A stretch of DNA of 64,000 nt from a virus. The stretch lies in IMG/VR virus record IMGVR_UViG_3300005466_000027, positions 1-64,000 of that record; one strand, written 5' to 3'. The notes beneath the pieces were generated by a model that saw only the letters and a program-made list of their open reading frames with translations, had not been told where the DNA came from and ran no database searches. Positions 2,593 to 24,681 of the stretch are shown here, piece after piece; positions within the stretch are counted from its first letter, which is position 1; the number at the start of each line of letters is the position of its first letter. The position numbers and the translations under genes were made by a program.

Positions 2593-4425
2593 ATGGCAAT
2601 CAGAAAATATGGCCGTGAATTTCAGACCGACTCCCTTCTCACCATCGAGCTTTGGGCTTTTAAAGTTGGCCTGACCGAAGCCCAAGGGGGGCTTGGCAGA
2701 CACAAACATTTCGAGAATCTGGTTCGCGAGGTATTCCCGGAGTTTGTTTGGTTCAAAGAGGCGTATGAGCAGGCTGACGCGCTTTGCAACTACACCGTCA
2801 GCGGGTTTATGGCGGGCGCGTCGTTCGCGAAATCCGATTTGCTGGCAAAATATGCACTTTTTAATTGGTGGTGTGACCCAGTAAACACGCTGGTGATTCT
2901 ATGCTCCACTACGAGCATGGACGCTAAGCAACGGTGTTGGGGTCACCTCGTTCGCGATTTTCGAAAAGCCCGAGGGCAGAATAAGTCCGTGGGGCGGTTG
3001 ATCGAGAGTCAGAGCATCATCAAGCTGAGTGAGCAAGCGGACGGCGTAGCAGCTTCGGATAACTCTTCAATTTGCTTGGTCGCCGCGGGCAACGAGTACA
3101 AAGAGGATAGCCTCAAGAGATTGCAGGGCCGCAAAAATAAACGGGTGTGTTTGTTGATCGACGAAGGGCAGGACGTGAGTAACGACATTATTCAGACGGC
3201 TCTCTGGAACCTAAATGCGAACGATCATTTCGAAGTCCACATTGCAGGCAACGGGGCAAGCCGCTACGACACCCTAGGAGATTTTATGAAACCCGTGGAC
3301 GGTTGGAGTTCGGTCAACCGCTACACCCACAAATGGAAAATCAATGTGATGGGCAGGGAGGGATTGGCTATCCATTTTGATGCCACTGCTGAGGACTCGA
3401 CCAACATGGCGAGATTTGCACAAGGGCTCCCGCAGCTACCTTTTTTGCGTAAAGCAGAGGACATCATCACAGCAAAGGCTCACCTCGGGGAAAACAACGC
3501 AACCTACATGCGGCAATTTGTCGGGTTCCCTCCAGATCAAGAGGGTGAATCCAACTACATCATCACCGACGCCGCGCTTACCGCGCATGACGCTTACGAC
3601 CGCGCCGAATGGAGAACAACGCCGACTGAGTTGGCCGGTATCGACCCCAGCTATTCGAGCGAAGGTGACCGCTTTATGTTCTATCACTGCCGATGGGGGA
3701 TGAGCACCCAAGGCATATGGACTTTCGAGTTTTACGAGTCCATCCAGATCAAGCCAATCCCTGTGCCAGGTGAAACAAAAGACCACGCCAATATTCGAGC
3801 GTGCAAACAGATCGCGGAGGAACGGCACATCTCTCCGCGCATGGTCGGTATGGATGCCTCGGCAGGCAGCCCGCTGCTCTCCATCGCTCACCAACACTGG
3901 AGCCCGGATATTCTCGGCGTCTCGTTCGGAGGTTCTCCATCGGACCTGCCCATCAGCTTATTTGACAAACGCATCGCTTCTGATGTGTATGCCAACGCCA
4001 CCAGCGAACTCGCCTATGTGCTGGTGGAGTTTCTCAACTCTGGGCAGATTCGAGGCGTCAAACCAGATCACGCGAAAGAGCTGACTTCCCGCAAATTCGA
4101 AATCGTCGCCGGAAACAAAATTCGCATCGAGAAAAAGGCTGACGTAAAAAAGCGCCTTGGGTTTTCGCCGGATATTTCCGACAGCGGGGCGGTGGCGTTG
4201 CGTGTGCTGCGTGAGCGGCTCAAGATTCAGGCGGGCTCGGACGTAGGCAGCGCGCTGGGAGCCAGCTCTGACTGGAGAGCACTGCAGCGGAAGCGCGATG
4301 TCAACACACTCTCTTCCCGCAACCCTGCGCAGGCTCAGTCGCTCCCGGATCAAGTGATGGACAGCGTAGCGATGCGGGAGAGGACCATCAAACGGCTTCA
4401 AGGGTTGACTCAACGCAAGTTTTAA
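2593..4425 (+). CDS. terL: Terminase large subunit (packaging ATPase and nuclease)
   Basis: 610 residues, the normal size for TerL. It pumps phage DNA into proheads and cuts it. The N-terminal ATPase has a Walker A-like loop AGASFAKS (74-81), in which the usual Gly before Lys is Ala, then an adenine-motif-like VNTLVILCSTT. Walker B with catalytic Glu is VCLLIDEGQ (D190, E191). The C-terminal RNase H-fold nuclease shows GIDPSYS (~D351), GMDASAG (~D421) and SPDISDSG (~D527/D530), a plausible acidic triad. The gene follows the antisense HNH insertion and has a promoter-like sequence of its own. The small subunit candidate is far away, near 58.3 kb. Confidence 0.93.
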   Translation: MAIRKYGREFQTDSLLTIELWAFKVGLTEAQGGLGRHKHFENLVREVFPEFVWFKEAYEQADALCNYTVSGFMAGASFAKSDLLAKYALFNWWCDPVNTLVILCSTTSMDAKQRCWGHLVRDFRKARGQNKSVGRLIESQSIIKLSEQADGVAASDNSSICLVAAGNEYKEDSLKRLQGRKNKRVCLLIDEGQDVSNDIIQTALWNLNANDHFEVHIAGNGASRYDTLGDFMKPVDGWSSVNRYTHKWKINVMGREGLAIHFDATAEDSTNMARFAQGLPQLPFLRKAEDIITAKAHLGENNATYMRQFVGFPPDQEGESNYIITDAALTAHDAYDRAEWRTTPTELAGIDPSYSSEGDRFMFYHCRWGMSTQGIWTFEFYESIQIKPIPVPGETKDHANIRACKQIAEERHISPRMVGMDASAGSPLLSIAHQHWSPDILGVSFGGSPSDLPISLFDKRIASDVYANATSELAYVLVEFLNSGQIRGVKPDHAKELTSRKFEIVAGNKIRIEKKADVKKRLGFSPDISDSGAVALRVLRERLKIQAGSDVGSALGASSDWRALQRKRDVNTLSSRNPAQAQSLPDQVMDSVAMRERTIKRLQGLTQRKF

Positions 4426-4440
4426 GGTAGTCAGCGTCTC

Positions 4441-5490
4441 GTGAAATTATTGCTCGGCGACGCCCTCACCACCATTGACCCCGCGGCGCTCCCTGCTGGC
4501 TCGCAGCAAAAGCAAATTTCGTGGATCAACGCGGTTTGCAGCCATCTGTATATGACTGGAAAGTGGCAGGGCACCACCGTTCGATGGAAGGGGGCCACGA
4601 CGGGAGCGGCCTTCGCCATTTTCTACGATCCGGTGACGTTCCAAGCGTACATCACGCTCCCCCGCAACATCCTCTCCCTTTTGGCCGGTGCTTACGGCGT
4701 CTCAGGCACCAGCGCTCCCAGCTACAACGTCACCTTCAGCACATCACAAATCGTCGGCCCATGGTTCGAGTTCCGCCTCGGCGCTTACGGTGTCGGGGAT
4801 CAAGTGTGGGGCAGTGGCATCATGGATGCAGGCGACGGCTGGACGACTTTCCGGGACATCACGGAGAACAGCTATTTGAGGGTCGTCACGTCCGAAGCGG
4901 AAGCCGTGGGAGCGAAAATGCTGTTCCGCGGGTTGGACCAAAATGGCAACGAGATTTATTCCGGCACCGGCACCAACACGATTCAAGGCGTGGAACTGGA
5001 CATCAGCACCGGGCTCGTCACGCAGACCACCCAGATTTTCAGCGCGGCTCCTTCGCTCATCAAGAAACCCGTCACCTACGGCCCGGTGAGTCTCTACGCG
5101 GTCAGCGTCGCAACTGGGGTGGCCACCATGATCGGCCAATACGATCCCGGCGACACTTCTCCCGGATTCCGCCGATACAAGCTGGCTGGGCCTGTGGCCA
5201 GCGCAGGCGCACCGATTCCTTACACCACGCTCCACGCTATGGTGAAACGCCGGTTCGTCCCGGTGGCGTCTCTCTCCGATGAAGTAATCCCCGGCAATAT
5301 CCCGGCCATCGAACTCGGGTTGATGGGGCACCGCTACGACCTGCAGAGCGATACCAAGACGGCAGATCAATTCTGGGGTGAGGCTATCGCACTGCTCAAC
5401 GCGGACCTGGCCGAAAGCAATGGTGCGGCCATGCCGCGTATCCAGTTCCAGCGGGGGTCGAATTTAGCGGGCATGCCCTACATCGGATAG
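4441..5490 (+). CDS. Putative virion structural protein
   Basis: 349 residues from a GTG start 15 bases after terL. Mostly beta-rich, with many aromatic and Gly residues (WFEFRLGAYGVGDQVW), no membrane segment and no catalytic motif. The middle has FRGLDQNGNEIY and a long beta-rich region that ends in helices (DQFWGEAIALLNADLAE). Its place directly after the terminase and before another structural protein suggests a head-tail connector, neck or tail tube role. I do not recognise the family by name. Confidence 0.7.
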   Translation: MKLLLGDALTTIDPAALPAGSQQKQISWINAVCSHLYMTGKWQGTTVRWKGATTGAAFAIFYDPVTFQAYITLPRNILSLLAGAYGVSGTSAPSYNVTFSTSQIVGPWFEFRLGAYGVGDQVWGSGIMDAGDGWTTFRDITENSYLRVVTSEAEAVGAKMLFRGLDQNGNEIYSGTGTNTIQGVELDISTGLVTQTTQIFSAAPSLIKKPVTYGPVSLYAVSVATGVATMIGQYDPGDTSPGFRRYKLAGPVASAGAPIPYTTLHAMVKRRFVPVASLSDEVIPGNIPAIELGLMGHRYDLQSDTKTADQFWGEAIALLNADLAESNGAAMPRIQFQRGSNLAGMPYIG

Positions 5491-5491
5491 C

Positions 5492-7294
5492 ATGCCAAAT
5501 AATCCTCCCAACAAGCCGACGCTGGATTTTCCGTTTCCTTCGGTTGTCGTCGATACGCTTCTCACCGAACGGTCGTCCTCATTCGTGGGAACGTGGACGC
5601 CCCTGGAGCCTGGCACCCCGTTCAACCCGCTCAACCACTCGGTGGAAGAGGTTACGAGGTATCAAGGAAATATTTTCCTCGGACAAAAAGCGGGTAAGGA
5701 TAACGAATCTCAAGACCGATTCTGGGCCACTCAGCCGCACACGCAGGACATCTACAACTACGCGCAGGATTACACCTCGGATGTCGATGCCAACCCGGTT
5801 TTCACACGGCGGTATCTGGAGCTTCGTGACCAGTATCCAGCACTGCGTCGGACACGGCGGCAGCCGTTCACGGGCCTCTACGCCATCCGTGTGACCAATG
5901 GAGGCACTGGCTACAGCACCGACCCGACCAACCCACCGACCGCGGTAATTTCCGACAGTGGCTCCGGTTCTGGTGCGACGGCGGTTGTCGTGGTAGACCC
6001 GACGACAGGCGCAGTGGTGAAGCTGACCTTGAAGACCGAGGGTCTGCTCTACACACCGACGACGGTTTCCATCGCGATCACGGATGTAGCTGGTGGCACG
6101 GGTGTAGGAGCAACAGCGGTGGCCGTTCTTCAGCCGGTGGCCTGCGTCTTGATAAGTGAGGTAGCGGTTTCTGCTCCCGCTCCATGGGACTCGCTTTATC
6201 TGCTCGTCACGCGGGTTTACGAGACGCTCCCTGGGCCGATTCTCTTCAGCATCGACCCTGACCCCGAGTTGGGTATTCCGGTGATGACGACGGAGCAACG
6301 GCGCAGTTCCAGTGACACTTGGACCTGTGGTGAAATTGCTCCAGTCGCTTTCAATATCTCCGGGGCGACGGTCGCCGCGCAAACGGTGGTGACGCTCTCC
6401 GGGTATCCGACAATCCCTGACATTTTCGTTGAGGAATGGGTGGTCATCGCGGGTACCGCCAACACGACGCCTACGCTGAATGGGACGTGGAAGGTGGTGG
6501 CGGTGAGTGGCAGCACGATCACGCTGGATAAGCAGATCACCAATGTCTCGGGAGCCGTGGGGGGCACTGCCCGACGTTACTCCTACGCCTATGTAGCGCG
6601 CAGGAAGACCGAGAATGCCAACGTGGTGATGATGGTGACGACGCGCGCAGCCACGAACGACATCACTCAGTACGGACAGACCACCAAGGATAGCCGCCCT
6701 TACCCGTTCCCGGACGCCTTGCTGGACATCATCCTCTACAACGATACCGCCAGCACAACGGATGGCGCGTTCGCCATCAACTACGCCTACTCGTGGTCCG
6801 GGGTTGTGGGGTATAAAATTCTCCCAGGCTTCCGGGGCGACTGCAGCGCTCAGAAGATTCGGTTTTTCAGCATGGGGCCGTTCACCGTGTTCCCGACTGA
6901 TCCCTCCACAGGGCTTGAATATGCCGCTACAGTCGTGATCCCGGCTGTCGGCACAGTCACGGTTCAAGGGGGGTCGTTTTCCAAAGCGTTGAATTTCAAC
7001 ACTCTCGACGAGACGCAATCGACCAGCAACACGTTCAAGGGGTCGCCCGTTCCGCCAGTTCTCACCTCTGCCTATGCTGGACCGACTACGGTAGGCACTG
7101 GACAGGCTACATTCAACATCGCGCTGCCGGATTCCATCGTGAAAGACCCCGGTTCCGCTGCGAGAAAAGGATTCGTCCAAGGGGACATTATTCGGGTGAT
7201 CGACCAAGTGCAGAAGCTCCGGGGCACCGGGGTTTATATGCTGACCATCTGGAGAATCGTTTGTCCGTACACCACAGGCGTCGGTCCTGCTTGA
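5492..7294 (+). CDS. Large beta-rich virion protein, possible tail or adhesion component
   Basis: 600 residues starting one base after the previous stop. It is rich in Thr, Val, Gly and Pro. Residues ~130-210 hold two short beta repeats typical of tail proteins ([17 protein letters not shown]; a Gly/Ala-rich strand-turn region ending [16 protein letters not shown]). The remainder has beta-sandwich-like segments ([17 protein letters not shown]). No enzyme motif was seen. A structural tail, neck or decoration protein fits. A long antisense frame covers the same DNA but is a composition artefact. Confidence 0.7.
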
Positions 7295-7295
7295 T

Positions 7296-7769
7296 ATGGA
7301 CGAGGGAGACGACTTCTTAATCTGGAATCCCGATGGTAATGGACTGCTTGGTGGGATGCCAAGTAACGCCCGACCCATTCTTGAACCTGCTACGGGTGAG
7401 CTGACGGCGACTGCGGACGAACCACTGGCCCAGCCTGGGGTGCAGCAGGGTACGGGGTCTGACGCAACAGCCGGTCCTCCCGGTGGCCCTGGCCCGCCTG
7501 GCCCGCCTGGCCCGCCTGGTGATCCGGGTGGCCCTCCCGGTCCTCCGGGTGATCCCGGCCCCCCTGGGCCTCAAGGTGATCCCGGTCCCCCCGGTCCTGG
7601 TGGCACACCCGGTCCTCCGGGACCACCCGGTGGTCCTCCTGGTCCTCCCGGCAGTCCGGGAACTCCAGGGCCACCCGGCCCTCCAGGGGTGACAGACACA
7701 TTTACCTTCAGTTATTTGGACTGTAACAACGTCTGTCAGACGATTACTGTCTTCGTTCCTCCCCCGTAA
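7296..7769 (+). CDS. Collagen-like (Gly-X-Y) virion protein
   Basis: 157 residues. The N-terminal ~58 residues are acidic and non-repetitive. Residues 60-131 are about 23 Gly-X-Y triplets, mostly GPP, GDP and GPQ, with proline in the Y position in nearly every triplet. Two GGPPG steps (78-82 and 112-116) shift the register. The C-terminal 26 residues form a short beta-like cap with a CNNVC pair. Collagen-like stretches in phages normally form trimeric stalks in fibres. The gene starts one base after the structural gene before it and ends 4 bases before an oxygenase of prolyl-hydroxylase type, which could modify it. Confidence 0.9.
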
Positions 7770-7773
7770 AAAT

Positions 7774-8352
7774 ATGGACTGGTGGCGTATCAAAACCAAA
7801 GCGCTTTCACAAGCGGAGTGCGAAAAAATCAGAGAGGTGGCCTTCACTTATGCGCAGGCCGACGCAACCATTGGGCATGGAGGCACAACCTCGGTGGTGG
7901 ACACGTCGATCCGCAAAAGCACACTGCGCTGGCTTCACCGGGAAGACCCGCGGCTCCAGTGGCTCTACCTGCGCATCGAGCACATCGTTGGGGACTTCAA
8001 CGCCAAGTATTTCGGGCTCGATCTTGCGGCCCAAGCCGGGGGATTCACCGATGTCCAGTTCACCGAATACCATGGTGAAAGCAATCAGCGCTACGATTGG
8101 CATGAGGATTGCAACTGGAAAGGCACAACGCCGTTCGACCGCAAACTTTCCTTGGTGATCCAACTTTCGTTGCCCAGTGAGTATCAAGGGGGCCGGTTGG
8201 AGCTACACAATGACCCGCTCCCAGATCATCTGTTCCGCGATCAGGGGGATATCATCATTTTCCCATCGTTCAACCGCCATCGGGTAACACCTGTCACCTC
8301 CGGCGACCGATACTCTCTCGTCACTTGGATTCACGGCCCACGCCTCCGGTAA
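7774..8352 (+). CDS. 2-oxoglutarate/Fe(II) oxygenase, prolyl 4-hydroxylase-like
   Basis: 192 residues. The double-stranded beta-helix signature is complete. The HxD iron motif is H110/D112 in YDWHEDCNW, the distal iron ligand is H169 in FPSFNRHRVTPV, and the 2-oxoglutarate-binding Arg is R179 in SGDRYSLVTWIHGP. The strand LVIQLSLPSEYQGG with GRLELHND is typical of PiuC/P4H-type enzymes. Such enzymes use O2 and 2-oxoglutarate to hydroxylate protein side chains or small molecules. Being 4 bases after the collagen-like gene makes X-Pro-Gly hydroxylation the first hypothesis. Substrate assignment is inference, and PiuC-like members with other substrates exist. Confidence 0.9.
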   Translation: MDWWRIKTKALSQAECEKIREVAFTYAQADATIGHGGTTSVVDTSIRKSTLRWLHREDPRLQWLYLRIEHIVGDFNAKYFGLDLAAQAGGFTDVQFTEYHGESNQRYDWHEDCNWKGTTPFDRKLSLVIQLSLPSEYQGGRLELHNDPLPDHLFRDQGDIIIFPSFNRHRVTPVTSGDRYSLVTWIHGPRLR

Positions 8353-15189: not shown

Positions 15190-15579
15190 TTAAAACGGTT
15201 CATCTACAATCGCGCTCATCCACAGCTTGCCATAGCGTTCCCGGTTGCCTTTGGCGATGTTCTCGCTCATGGGGAGCACCTGGAGATTGTCCATCGTGTA
15301 GCCGAGCCACGTTTTAATCCGGTCGATGTGGTGTTCCAGGGAGTTGTATTTATTCTTGATGAGGAACTCAGTCAGCCACTCCTCGGTTAAGTCGAAGGGC
15401 ACTTTTTTCCGTTTTGCCCGGTCGCGCAGGATACACAGTTTCGCTTTGACTGGGTTCGCTGTACGCCACTGCCGCTTTTTGCATTTGCTGCAGAACCCCC
15501 CATCTTTCTTGGCACGCGGGTTGCGGCAGAATTTAGTGAGGCACTTGTCTGGGCGTCGGCGGGGGGTGGTCATTTTCAA
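15190..15579 (-). CDS. HNH-type nuclease-like protein
   Basis: 129 residues. N-terminal zinc knuckle (CLTKFCRNPRAKKDGGFCSKC), a basic middle, and a C-terminal HNH-like beta-beta-alpha unit EHHIDRIKTWLGYTMDNLQV with LPMSENIAKGN. The second His of HH, the Asp and the Asn residues correspond to the HNH pattern. In phages this family is found as stand-alone genes and is probably mobile or a nicking accessory. Activity is not proven. Confidence 0.7.
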   Translation of the reverse strand: MKMTTPRRRPDKCLTKFCRNPRAKKDGGFCSKCKKRQWRTANPVKAKLCILRDRAKRKKVPFDLTEEWLTEFLIKNKYNSLEHHIDRIKTWLGYTMDNLQVLPMSENIAKGNRERYGKLWMSAIVDEPF

Positions 15580-21026: not shown

Positions 21027-21401
21027 CTATTTTCGACGATTCAACCTGGCATTGGTTTTCTGCAGGCATCCGAGGCAGTAAATCCGTGTTTCCAGTTGTG
21101 GGCTCTCGCACATCACGCAAACGTGGTCGGCCTGCCTGCGGTGAAAAGTGGTCATGCCGTGGTTGACTTTGCTTTTGCGGACGTGGGGAACCTTCTCGAA
21201 CTGCTGTCCTTTCTGCAGGGTGCCACTGGGCACAATAGCCATGAAGACTTGACGTGAGAGGTTCTCCCGAAGCTGGTATTTTTGCTCCTGCGCTTCCTTC
21301 ATCTTGACGTGGCAGGCGGCGACACCGTGAACACACAAGCCGTGGAAAGCGATGATCGCTACATCGTAGCGCCGGGTGTCTGGTTGAAAGTCGTAGTCCA
21401 T
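21027..21401 (-). CDS. Basic zinc-finger-like early protein
   Basis: 124 residues from the Met five bases downstream of the polymerase C-part gene. The upstream extension of the frame is antisense-free but overlaps the polymerase and is rejected. N-terminal MDYDFQPDTRRYDVAI, a middle rich in Lys/His, and CVMCESPQLETRIYCLGC near the end, a likely zinc site. Follows the polymerase genes, so probably DNA-related. Confidence 0.65.
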   Translation of the reverse strand: MDYDFQPDTRRYDVAIIAFHGLCVHGVAACHVKMKEAQEQKYQLRENLSRQVFMAIVPSGTLQKGQQFEKVPHVRKSKVNHGMTTFHRRQADHVCVMCESPQLETRIYCLGCLQKTNARLNRRK

Positions 21402-21405
21402 AATG

Positions 21406-22239
21406 TCAATCCTTTTTATAGAAGGGCACGAGCGCCCCCTCAGCCGCAATCGGGAGCCCCTCAGCCCAAGCGGGTAAATCGGTGAGTAACTTGACAAACT
21501 CCTCGGGGGTTTGCGTGGGTCGGGAATAAGCAAGAGCTTGATCGTGAATAAGGGCACAGATTTCGTATCCACCGTCTTCGGCGTTTTGTGCTCCGTTGCA
21601 CATGATGTCTGCGGCGACGGCCTGCGTGGCATTTTCCGCCCACACCCCGCCCCAAATACCTGAATTGTGTCCCCATGTCACGCCTTTGAGGTTCTGGTAA
21701 AAGCTGACCGCTGTGGTCCCTTCGAACTTGCCTGGAACGATCCGGGGCAGTGGATAAGCAAGCTTACGACCACTGGGCAACCGCATGAGGAGGAACTCGA
21801 TACCCCCAGTCGTGATGACTTTGAATGAGATGTGCGGGCCTGCGGAGAAAACCTCACCCTTGTGCAGCACCGCGGCTTTGGCCGCGTCATCCAGATCACC
21901 CCAGAAATCGACTACTTTGCTGTGCTTCTTGCGCCATGCCTTGATGGCCTTGAACTCCAACCCCTCGGGCAGATCGTAATTGCTTGGGGGTTTCTTGCAG
22001 GAATCGCGGAATTTCGGGGCACCAAGTCCGAAGCCCGCGCCCAAAATTAGACCCTTCCCAACAAACCGTTGAGGGAACTTGTTCACCTCTTTTTCCGGTA
22101 TGCCGTAGACGAATGCAGCCATGCGCTTATAACGGTCAACGCCTTGCTTGTATTCTTCCAGCGCGTCCTCTTGGCCAGCCAGCCAGCATACGATACGAGC
22201 CTCGATGGCTGCGAAATCAGCATCATGCAGAAAGCTCAT
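21406..22239 (-). CDS. polA: Family A DNA polymerase, palm and fingers part (split gene, C-part)
   Basis: 277 residues carrying the polymerase active site. Motif A is DADFAAIEARIVCWLAG (D8, E13). Motif B is R58-x3-K62-x7-F70-G71 (QRFVGKGLILGAGFG). Motif C is ALIHDQALAY (H232-D233-Q234), in which the usual Glu of HDE is Gln. The thumb and exonuclease are missing here and are encoded by the gene at 22484. The split falls directly before motif A. Overlaps the intervening small gene by ATGA. Confidence 0.92.
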   Translation of the reverse strand: MSFLHDADFAAIEARIVCWLAGQEDALEEYKQGVDRYKRMAAFVYGIPEKEVNKFPQRFVGKGLILGAGFGLGAPKFRDSCKKPPSNYDLPEGLEFKAIKAWRKKHSKVVDFWGDLDDAAKAAVLHKGEVFSAGPHISFKVITTGGIEFLLMRLPSGRKLAYPLPRIVPGKFEGTTAVSFYQNLKGVTWGHNSGIWGGVWAENATQAVAADIMCNGAQNAEDGGYEICALIHDQALAYSRPTQTPEEFVKLLTDLPAWAEGLPIAAEGALVPFYKKD

Positions 22240-22487
22240 AAGAAAGTCTCTCCAGAAGAAATAACATCCTCAATTTTATAAGCGCCGTTGGGGTAATGTT
22301 TGATGCCGTGTTTTGTGCACAAGGTCACCCACCCACAGGGATTTGCTGGGTAAACGTAATCGGTGGGTTCGCCGCAAAATTCGTGGTACGCCAGCCCATT
22401 CCGAACTTGCATAACCAAGACTTCACACGTAGGGGAAATGGGTTGACTCAGCCAGTTTTTTGATTTGTAGGGAAGAGGAGGAATCAT
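22236..22487 (-). CDS. Small protein inserted between the two polymerase genes
   Basis: 83 residues with ATGA overlaps to both polymerase halves. Contains CEVLVMQVRNGLAYHEFCGE and CGWVTLCTKHGIKHYP, a four-Cys arrangement that could bind zinc. No homing-nuclease or intein motif seen. It may be a subunit that helps the split enzyme assemble, or an unrelated insertion. The ribosome site GGAGG for it is embedded in the last codons of the upstream half. Confidence 0.75.
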   Translation of the reverse strand: MIPPLPYKSKNWLSQPISPTCEVLVMQVRNGLAYHEFCGEPTDYVYPANPCGWVTLCTKHGIKHYPNGAYKIEDVISSGETFL

Positions 22488-23665
22488 TGCGCGTCCTCCA
22501 CAAAGTGTCTGATACAGCTCGAAATCACCTGCAGCGGTGGCCCGTAAACCAACTCCACCATATCCCTTGACATACCTGCACAGATGTCACGGTAAGCCTC
22601 CTCGCTATTATCAATAGTAGGGCGCTTCATATTTTGAAATTGCACCAGGGAATTTGTCGATCTACCCGTGGTAGCTCCATGGTGATTCAGCATCCCCCGT
22701 ATCCGATTATCCCCCGGCCCCACACACGCGAGCATGGTCTGCACTTTCTTGATGGCAGCGTAGCTCACGGATGCCCGCAGAGCGAGTGCCTCGCGAACCA
22801 CACATGGAACGTATCCACCACTTTCGTCTTCAAGAAAAGTTTCCACCGTAGCCGCCTGCAAATCGCCGTACGGGTATCCCGCCGTCTGCGCCCAAGCGAG
22901 CACCTTCGCTCCCTGCGTAAACTCCAAGCCCGTCAGATCTTTAAACTTCTTCGACACGATTTCCGTTTCCTCGTCGATCAGCTTTTGCGCATGACGCAGA
23001 GCTGGTATATTCACCGTTACGCCGCGGGCGTTGATAATCTCATGCAAGGTGTAGTTGCGGTTGTTGATCGGATCATCGAAGTAGGCCAGGCGACGCGCCA
23101 CCTCCTGCTCCGCACGCACGTCCTGACGGCAGTAGTCCACAAAGCGCATGAAGTCTTCGGGGTCGTCCTCCGGGTGAATCCGACGCACGGGCACACCATC
23201 AGGGTTTTTCTTGGTCGGCTTCTTCGCGGGCTGCATCATGGAGAATTTCTTGATGAGCCGCTTGCCGTCTTTGTCCTTGATGACGGTGCCGAGAAACTCG
23301 CTGAGCTTTTCCAGTTTGGCCGGGAGAGCTGCACGACGGGCAAGGGACATGGTGCAGCGGAAGCGCTCGATGGCTGGTGGCCGTATGCCCCAGGTTTTCC
23401 ACATCAGCGCTTGGCTCATCGCGTACTCAAATTGTGCATTGTGGGCGACCACTAACACGCTGGGGTCTTCCAGCGCATCCCAGTAAGGATCGAGCTTGGC
23501 CAGCTCTGCATCCGGCATGCTCCTCCACCACGCTACGGGTTCTTCGTTGTCAAAGGCCATCGCACAGCACAGAATCTCTGTGGATTTGTCAAGGCTATAT
23601 CGGTAGCCTCCGACTTCGGTGATGTCGGCTTGACTGAAGGACTCGTAGTCGAGGTGAAGGTGCAT
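22484..23665 (-). CDS. polA: Family A DNA polymerase, exonuclease and thumb part (split gene, N-part)
   Basis: 393 residues. N-terminal DEDDy 3'-5' exonuclease: LHLDYESFSQADI (Exo I), VVAHNAQFEYAMSQ (Exo II), YCRQDVRAEQEV (Exo III). Then a thumb-type helical region and the conserved GATTGRSTNSLVQFQNMKRP, after which polymerases normally continue into motif A. Here the protein ends CIRHFVEDAQ and the rest is a separate gene. The Met at 23665 is chosen because the exonuclease begins there. The longer frame adds non-homologous residues. Confidence 0.92.
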   Translation of the reverse strand: MHLHLDYESFSQADITEVGGYRYSLDKSTEILCCAMAFDNEEPVAWWRSMPDAELAKLDPYWDALEDPSVLVVAHNAQFEYAMSQALMWKTWGIRPPAIERFRCTMSLARRAALPAKLEKLSEFLGTVIKDKDGKRLIKKFSMMQPAKKPTKKNPDGVPVRRIHPEDDPEDFMRFVDYCRQDVRAEQEVARRLAYFDDPINNRNYTLHEIINARGVTVNIPALRHAQKLIDEETEIVSKKFKDLTGLEFTQGAKVLAWAQTAGYPYGDLQAATVETFLEDESGGYVPCVVREALALRASVSYAAIKKVQTMLACVGPGDNRIRGMLNHHGATTGRSTNSLVQFQNMKRPTIDNSEEAYRDICAGMSRDMVELVYGPPLQVISSCIRHFVEDAQ

Positions 23666-23676
23666 GTATGCGGGAA

Positions 23677-23961
23677 TCAGCGGGAGTAATCCCGTTTCTC
23701 GTCGAGCAGAAGACGCATGTAGCAATCTGGGCAAACATGCCCAAGGGTAGGTCTGTTACCTACCGCGAACCACACTGCGGTGTTCTGGCATCCTGGTGTC
23801 AGACATGGATAACGTGTGTCCTTATTCGCTGCCACCACCTCACTCCTCGGCAGCGAAGGGACGCAGGTGCAAGGCTGCCCCGCTTCCACGTCCCGCGCAC
23901 AGAAGTGGCAAGGACGGGATTTGGGACGCGGATCGCGGTCGATGTAGTAGGCGTGGTCCAC
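23677..23961 (-). CDS. Cys-rich zinc-finger protein
   Basis: 94 residues. Cysteine pairs CHFCARDVEAGQPCTC, CLTPGCQN and CPDCYMRL indicate two zinc sites. Between SSB-like and polymerase genes, 3 and 11 bases spacing. Likely nucleic-acid or protein binding. Not assigned to a family. Confidence 0.7.
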   Translation of the reverse strand: MDHAYYIDRDPRPKSRPCHFCARDVEAGQPCTCVPSLPRSEVVAANKDTRYPCLTPGCQNTAVWFAVGNRPTLGHVCPDCYMRLLLDEKRDYSR

Positions 23962-23964
23962 GGC

Positions 23965-24567
23965 CTAGTAATCGTCAGTGCTGGTGGGTGCCTTGCCGCG
24001 ATTGGAGCGGCGGCTGGTGGTGGATGCTTCATCACCATCCCCGCTGATGGCGTCGAACTCGTCTTCGACGTTGACCTTACCCGCGCCAAAGCTCTCGCCA
24101 TCTTTGAGGAACTGGACAGCACGCAGTTCCGCGTTGACGCGCTTGCCCCACTTATTGTTCTGCACCCAGAGGCGGATGGTGGCGTTGACGTAGCACCCGG
24201 CGTAGACTTTGCCGTCTTCCTCGGTAATCGGATTCAGGTCGTGATCGACGACCGCGGGACGGGTTTTGCGGCTGGCCGGAATGAAGAACTTCCCGTCGCC
24301 ATAGCCTTCCAGCTCCAGCTTTTCGTTGCCGCCACGGAGACAGCGTTTGAAGCTGATTTTCTTCTTGAACTCGTCGAGAGCGAGCCGGTCAATCATGGCG
24401 TCGATGTGGTCGAGGAGTTTGCCGTGCTCCTCGGTGTCGAGAAGGAAGGTCGCGGAGAACTTCGGTTCCTGGCCTTCCTCCATGGCGTGAGGCTTGAACA
24501 GGTGAGGGAAGGACAGCCGAACATTCGGCAGTTTGATGATGGCGGGATCGGTGGCTTTGGTGGTCAT
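23965..24567 (-). CDS. Single-strand DNA-binding protein, DUF2815 family
   Basis: 200 residues from the ATG at 24567. DUF2815 features: PAIIKLPNVRLSFPHLF, KFSATFLLDTEEHGKL, RPAVVDHDLNPITEEDG, GCYVNATIRLWVQNNKWG, GVLVELRAVQF-like region and an acidic, Ser/Thr-rich tail ending STDDY. This family is a phage ssDNA-binding protein usually placed next to DUF2800 and polymerase, as here. An upstream GTG is less likely. Confidence 0.9.
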   Translation of the reverse strand: MTTKATDPAIIKLPNVRLSFPHLFKPHAMEEGQEPKFSATFLLDTEEHGKLLDHIDAMIDRLALDEFKKKISFKRCLRGGNEKLELEGYGDGKFFIPASRKTRPAVVDHDLNPITEEDGKVYAGCYVNATIRLWVQNNKWGKRVNAELRAVQFLKDGESFGAGKVNVEDEFDAISGDGDEASTTSRRSNRGKAPTSTDDY

Positions 24568-24681
24568 GTTGGTTTTGGTTGCGCCTAGCGTCGGGATCAC
24601 ATCCCGCCTTTCGGCATTTTCTTGCCAGCGCGGAGGCGCTGACGGTTTTGTTGAAGGACAGCGTGAATCGCTGGCCCAGAT

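Follow-up and report, generated by a model that had tools for sequence, protein, structure and literature searches.

A phage family A DNA polymerase encoded in two pieces that meet directly before motif A, with different genes at the junction in its relatives

Family A DNA polymerases of the Klenow and Taq kind are textbook single chains. In the 64,000-nucleotide stretch of viral DNA analysed here (positions 1 to 64,000 of IMG/VR record IMGVR_UViG_3300005466_000027, a virus record of 71,864 bases; hereafter the window), a first-pass annotation described a polymerase of this family as two genes with a small gene for an 83-residue protein between them, and proposed that this middle protein could bridge the two parts or be a former mobile element. 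The locus raises the question of whether such a polymerase can work in two pieces, and what the gene between them represents. Our analysis favours, with a probability of roughly three in four, a functional two-subunit family A polymerase whose fission site collects exchangeable accessory genes of lower guanine plus cytosine (GC) content.

The polymerase pieces in the window

The coordinates, reading frames and peptides initially given for the locus, which lies on the minus strand, are correct. Piece 1 (22484..23665, minus strand) comprises the 3'-5' exonuclease, the thumb and the first part of the palm. It spans 393 residues from an ATG at 23665, with an alternative open TTG start at 23734, and ends in ...CIRHFVEDAQ* at 22484; it matches phrog_17 (E 5.5e-36, profile 672-990) and no family in a Pfam search. 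Piece 2 (21406..22239, minus strand; 277 residues) runs from motif A to the C-terminus and holds palm and fingers. Its N-terminus, MSFLHDADFAAIEAR, opens with MSFLHDAD, and it matches phrog_17 (2.4e-34), phrog_10285, phrog_7766 and, under the gathering cut-off of 34.3, PF00476 (2.9e-6, 26.9 bits). Piece 1 carries, in frame, DEDD-type exonuclease signatures (LDYESF, HNAQFE and YCRQDV) and the TGR motif, and piece 2 carries motif A, an R-x3-K resembling motif B, and motif C (HDQ). The acidic exonuclease signatures and then motifs A, B and C follow one another in the expected order across both pieces. Placed on the intact polymerase of a relative, L005, the pieces cover residues 1-398 and 398-676, so no polymerase residues are missing, and the two genes are complementary cistrons of one enzyme with a complete residue set. 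Judged by its sequence, the locus encodes a family A DNA polymerase with a 3'-5' exonuclease, activity being predicted.

The position of the break within the fold was read from an AlphaFold 2 (AF2) model of intact L005, rather than of the window's own protein, made from 35 rows (predicted local distance difference test score, pLDDT, 94; predicted template modelling score, pTM, 0.91). Foldseek returns family A DNA polymerase structures as the best PDB matches of this model, and a sequence search of the PDB with the exonuclease profile gave chance hits only. The motif A break corresponds to a loop (394-399) between a helix (382-393) and the motif A strand (400-405).

Between the pieces lies an open reading frame (ORF; 22236..22487, minus strand) for the 83-residue protein, which contains four Cys and three His. 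As first described, three genes are joined by ATGA overlaps: the stop of piece 1 and the start of the middle ORF share ATGA at 22484..22487, and the stop of the middle ORF and the start of the palm piece share it at 22236..22239 (both minus strand). These overlaps are in themselves ordinary for this genome, since six of the seven other four-nucleotide overlaps checked at 15.5-25 kb also read ATGA. The seventh reads TTGA, shared by neighbouring genes at 15576-15579, and is a possible TTG start in an ATGA-rich operon. Each downstream start is preceded by a putative Shine-Dalgarno-like sequence on the minus strand, namely GGAGG (22495..22499), 7 nucleotides before the middle ORF and within the V-E-D codons of piece 1, and GGAGAG (22248..22253), 8 nucleotides before the palm piece.

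The break among close relatives

How common such a break is was gauged in a survey of window-type polymerases into which 84 names went, near-copies included. For 25 of these the profile gave no exonuclease match or too short a one, and they were counted neither as intact nor as split. The 59 with enough of both parts comprise 53 intact polymerases, four split before motif A, one split elsewhere (L053) and one split by an intein with an HNH ORF (L045). In bacterial genomes the palm profile found 80 prophage-type loci, with exonuclease and palm in one ORF in 79 and the remaining locus truncated at a contig end; the exonuclease profile found no relative there. These counts support the view, already taken in the first-pass annotation, that a break beside motif A is unusual within this polymerase family.

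The four polymerases split before motif A are those of the window and of L001, L007 and L008. L001, a separate metagenome contig, is the closest relative, with a palm 86% identical to that of the window. Its polymerase is in three pieces. The gap before motif A holds a gene resembling 3'-phosphoadenosine-5'-phosphosulfate (PAPS) reductase (phrog_424, 1.4e-23), and a second break, in the thumb (2156-2890) at a site that is continuous in the window, is filled by an N6/N4 DNA methyltransferase gene (phrog_67, 2.3e-67). Neither of these genes was found when sought elsewhere in the window's record; L001's own record has a weak partial methyltransferase match elsewhere. L007 and L008, about 60% identical to the window in the exonuclease piece, break at the same point as the window. 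Their gap ORFs, of 128 and 76 residues respectively, encode proteins that matched no known family. In both, the DNA resembles that of the intact gene plus cargo and five extra bases, GTATG, between the HFV(H/Q)D and SRP/TRP codons; the two halves are in different frames, so this is more than a simple in-frame interruption.

All five cargo genes of this clade lie below their polymerase flanks in GC. The middle ORF of the window has 46.4% against 55.8/55.4%, the two cargo genes of L001 have 50.9 and 51.9 against about 60, and the remaining two have 42.6 against 50.2/51.4 and 42.9 against 50.9/51.7. By this compositional measure the cargo genes seem to have arrived recently and separately.

The window is a metagenome contig and the single record found of this very virus, which gives some room to an assembly or sequencing error, named for 22.24-22.48 kb in the first-pass annotation as something that would refute its reading, or to a decaying polymerase. 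The relatives L001, L007 and L008, however, are split at the same point, and a break found in four phages of one clade, with different contents each time, is not an error. All signatures are kept. Between the window and L001 the ratio of nonsynonymous to synonymous substitution rates (dN/dS) is 0.098, 0.064 and 0.066 for the three polymerase parts, at a dS of 1.5-1.9, which is near saturation and makes the ratios rough. The pieces are under purifying selection in their split state, and the coincidence of the break in three relatives together with low dN/dS (0.06-0.10) indicates that the split is more than chance. Error or decay is therefore a negligible explanation. A search of relatives for an unsplit gene, as initially proposed, did recover one, the single 676-residue gene of L005. 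Such a relative had been expected to overturn the split; it exists, but the break common to four clade phages still stands.

Three loci have further features. At 6402-8207 the palm piece of L008 also contains an intein-like insert, and this has an HNH-like ORF in a different frame, so that this polymerase appears to be both split and intein-bearing, the intein-like ends being judged by eye; the start of its exonuclease lies in two frames near 5072-5141, by a real frame change or an error. In L045 the palm is broken at 5580-6813 by apparent intein halves, again judged by eye, with an HNH endonuclease ORF between them (phrog_374, 9.8e-53), an arrangement that looks like the known fractured-gene type. 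L053, a far relative with a palm about 33% identical, has a clean split at another site (3645-4899), between the TGR motif and the helix preceding motif A. Three small genes fill its gap, the first with a domain like that of R67 dihydrofolate reductase (R67-DHFR; PF06442, 1.1e-14).

Fractured genes with split inteins were reportedly described by Dassa in 2009. The PolB of MIJ3 is such a fractured gene (PMC6892783). Like the window, this type has a two-part phage polymerase and an intervening gene; its protein is made whole again by the intein halves, whereas the window has no intein at its break. A split intein was considered for the window and rejected, as the ends CIRHFVEDAQ* and MSFLHDAD are contiguous on L005 and no intein blocks are present.

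The other breaks were also placed on the L005 model. That in the thumb of L001 falls in a loop (284-290) within the least confident block (72), and that of L053, at about 368-371, also appears to be in a loop; the positions of piece 2 of L001, the first palm residue of L007 and L008 and the end of the exonuclease piece of L053 were assigned by eye. Three of three breaks in loops is suggestive rather than proof, since loops make up 31% of the model.

The same break in a second lineage

For the OM43 phages MEP401 and MEP402 (Zobellviridae; PMC10580990), a family A polymerase encoded by two genes, with a small ORF separating its parts, is already published. The authors suspect an intron in MEP401, and the available parts of the paper state no break position. 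By the positions determined here, both phages, like the window, break right before motif A, in MEP401 between ...SRYGE* and MILNADAKALE. In the window and in MEP401 alike, phrog_17 column 1011 holds the motif A alanine, and the palm pieces start two columns apart, at 1005 and 1007. MEP401 and MEP402 differ from the window in belonging to a separate polymerase lineage, in their middle ORF and in their junctions, TAACATG and TAATATG as against ATGA.

The MEP401 palm was used to scan viral contigs; 80 of 91 relatives were kept, which with MEP401 itself makes 81 loci. An exonuclease piece is in reach in 77, and every one of the 77 is split at the same alignment position. The halves overlap in 14 of these; the gap measures 11-60 nucleotides in 8, 61-150 in 10, 151-300 in 40 and more than 300 in 5. 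The gaps hold different genes or nothing. In the cultured Alcaligenes phage QDWS535 the halves overlap by 1 nucleotide (TAATG) with no gene between, and the L138 type likewise has nothing there. MW202697 carries an R67-DHFR-like gene in the motif A gap, MW202796, a complete circular genome, has seven genes over 3.6 kb between the halves, and L173, a far relative, has an HNH-type endonuclease ORF (phrog_3322, 7.7e-29).

These contents bear directly on the 83-residue protein. Were it a third subunit, whether as the bridge initially suggested or as a chaperone of the halves, its position between them with ATGA coupling on both sides would be natural, and its four Cys and three His could bind a metal. 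Relatives with the same break, however, carry unrelated proteins in its place (L001, L007 and L008) or none (QDWS535 and the L138 type), and the GC of its ORF is unlike that of the flanks. No relative of the protein was found in the phages, viral contigs and related records (G001-G004) searched; it has no Pfam or NCBIfam family and only weak PHROG matches, and a single-sequence AF2 model (pLDDT 48.7) is too poor for use. A bridging role is thus improbable.

A second possibility is that the middle segment is an intron, or that frameshifting joins the product, yielding one polypeptide. Introns are common in phage polymerase genes according to PMC10580990, and piece 2 is in the -1 frame relative to piece 1 once the insert is omitted. 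Against this, Rfam gave 0 matches over 21300-23800 even at E up to 5, the insert is an uninterrupted ORF that has a start, a stop and a Shine-Dalgarno-like sequence of its own, and the number of genes between the halves ranges from none in QDWS535 to seven in MW202796. We regard this as very improbable. The 83-residue ORF is best read as the present occupant of an exchangeable cargo site, neither bridge nor intron.

The two occurrences of the break are of separate origin. A palm tree of 27 rows gathers the MEP401-type splits in one clade (100/99) amid intact relatives and places the window's group apart, among a different set of intact relatives. Single-gene polymerases occur in the related HTVC033P, HMO-2011, CRP-235 and AndPeggy. 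The approximately unbiased (AU) test rejects a single clade for all motif A splits (p-AU 7.6e-5), which places the window's polymerase in a different lineage from that of MEP401. Motif A splits arose at least twice.

Recurrence at one site could also reflect a free-standing homing endonuclease that split the gene and was later replaced, the motif A codons being a conserved target struck repeatedly. The HNH-type ORF in the L173 gap and the same site struck in two lineages agree with this, and such a mechanism is documented for nrdA and T4 topoisomerase (PMC2988022). Yet no endonuclease match was obtained for any of the five cargo genes in the window's clade, 14 of the 77 MEP401-type loci overlap without any insert, and loop tolerance alone would yield the same site. 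This origin is doubtful, if a possibility to keep in mind. The earlier suggestion that its middle gene is a former mobile element was not borne out, as neither an Rfam intron nor, in Pfam, PHROG and NCBIfam searches, a homing endonuclease was matched in the insert; a mobile origin of some splits is possible given the ORF in L173.

A two-subunit enzyme with a cargo site

In the model that we favour, the polymerase would be made as two separately translated proteins, the first comprising the exonuclease, thumb and helix before motif A and the second the motif A strand, the rest of the palm and the fingers. As the break falls within a loop that connects secondary-structure elements, and no residues are left out, the two proteins may fold and join non-covalently. 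Termination-reinitiation at ATGA, each event aided by its own Shine-Dalgarno-like sequence, could co-translate the pieces and keep them in step. After fission the junction would be an ordinary gene boundary, at which unrelated accessory genes may be inserted, swapped or lost harmlessly. The L001 version would be a heterotrimeric polymerase with breaks at natural loops. We lean, if only a little, towards a broader statement, that family A polymerases repeatedly became obligate two-subunit enzymes (three-subunit in L001) by fission at one loop before motif A, and that the scar serves as a docking site for accessory-gene swaps inside an essential replication gene pair.

Several points weigh against this model. 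Subunit assembly, activity and translational coupling of the pieces are inferred. The Shine-Dalgarno-like sequences are clear in the window and L001 and weak in L007 and L008, and the dN/dS ratios are as rough as stated above. Unsplit L005 groups with the window and L001 at 81/78 support, inside or next to the split group, and a single clade of the four split phages is not rejected by the AU test (p 0.27); possible histories of the group are a single split followed by re-fusion, a single split with L005 lying outside it, or two separate splits. As the 83-residue ORF has no known relative, its protein could possibly have a helper role special to this phage. There is also a residual chance that the locus is not the replicative polymerase.

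Precedents from T4 and its relatives show that split enzymes of this sort can work. According to PMC2988022, nrdA of Aeh1 is split by mobE and its NrdA is fully functional, and the T4-like gene 43 is split in phages 25 and 44RR, with 43A and 43B of phage 25 co-purifying and active. As in the window, a phage enzyme is encoded there as two cistrons, and in T4 the mobE start overlaps the nrdA stop, like the overlapping cistrons described here. These systems differ in being a ribonucleotide reductase and a family B polymerase, and their insert is a homing endonuclease or an untranslated spacer, in contrast to the varied cargo of the window's clade. L005, Rhodoferax phage P26218 and HMO-2011 have the same domains in the same order as the window, but in one polypeptide. 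In a literature search that left most subscription papers and bioRxiv preprints outside its reach, we found no account of a shared position, of independent origin, of one site with exchangeable cargo or of a family A polymerase in three pieces. The recurrent exact site, the three-piece form and the turnover of cargo are new here.

The polymerase stands in a replication module. Upstream lies a gene for an Enc34-type single-stranded DNA-binding protein (23965..24600, minus strand; PF10991, 8.1e-39; phrog_112). A Cys-rich ORF of 94 residues (23677-23961) separates this gene from the polymerase, and may also be an inserted small gene, as in L005 the single-stranded DNA-binding protein gene abuts the polymerase.

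If the model is correct, a recurrent and selected break beside the catalytic aspartate would mean that the palm can be assembled from two proteins, and phages would offer ready-made split polymerases for switchable DNA synthesis. Separate cistrons might let a phage set the ratio of proofreading to synthesis subunits. The model would also explain the small 'hypothetical' ORFs that occur in polymerase genes and are annotated as possible introns, and would show essential phage genes turning into insertion sites for cargo.
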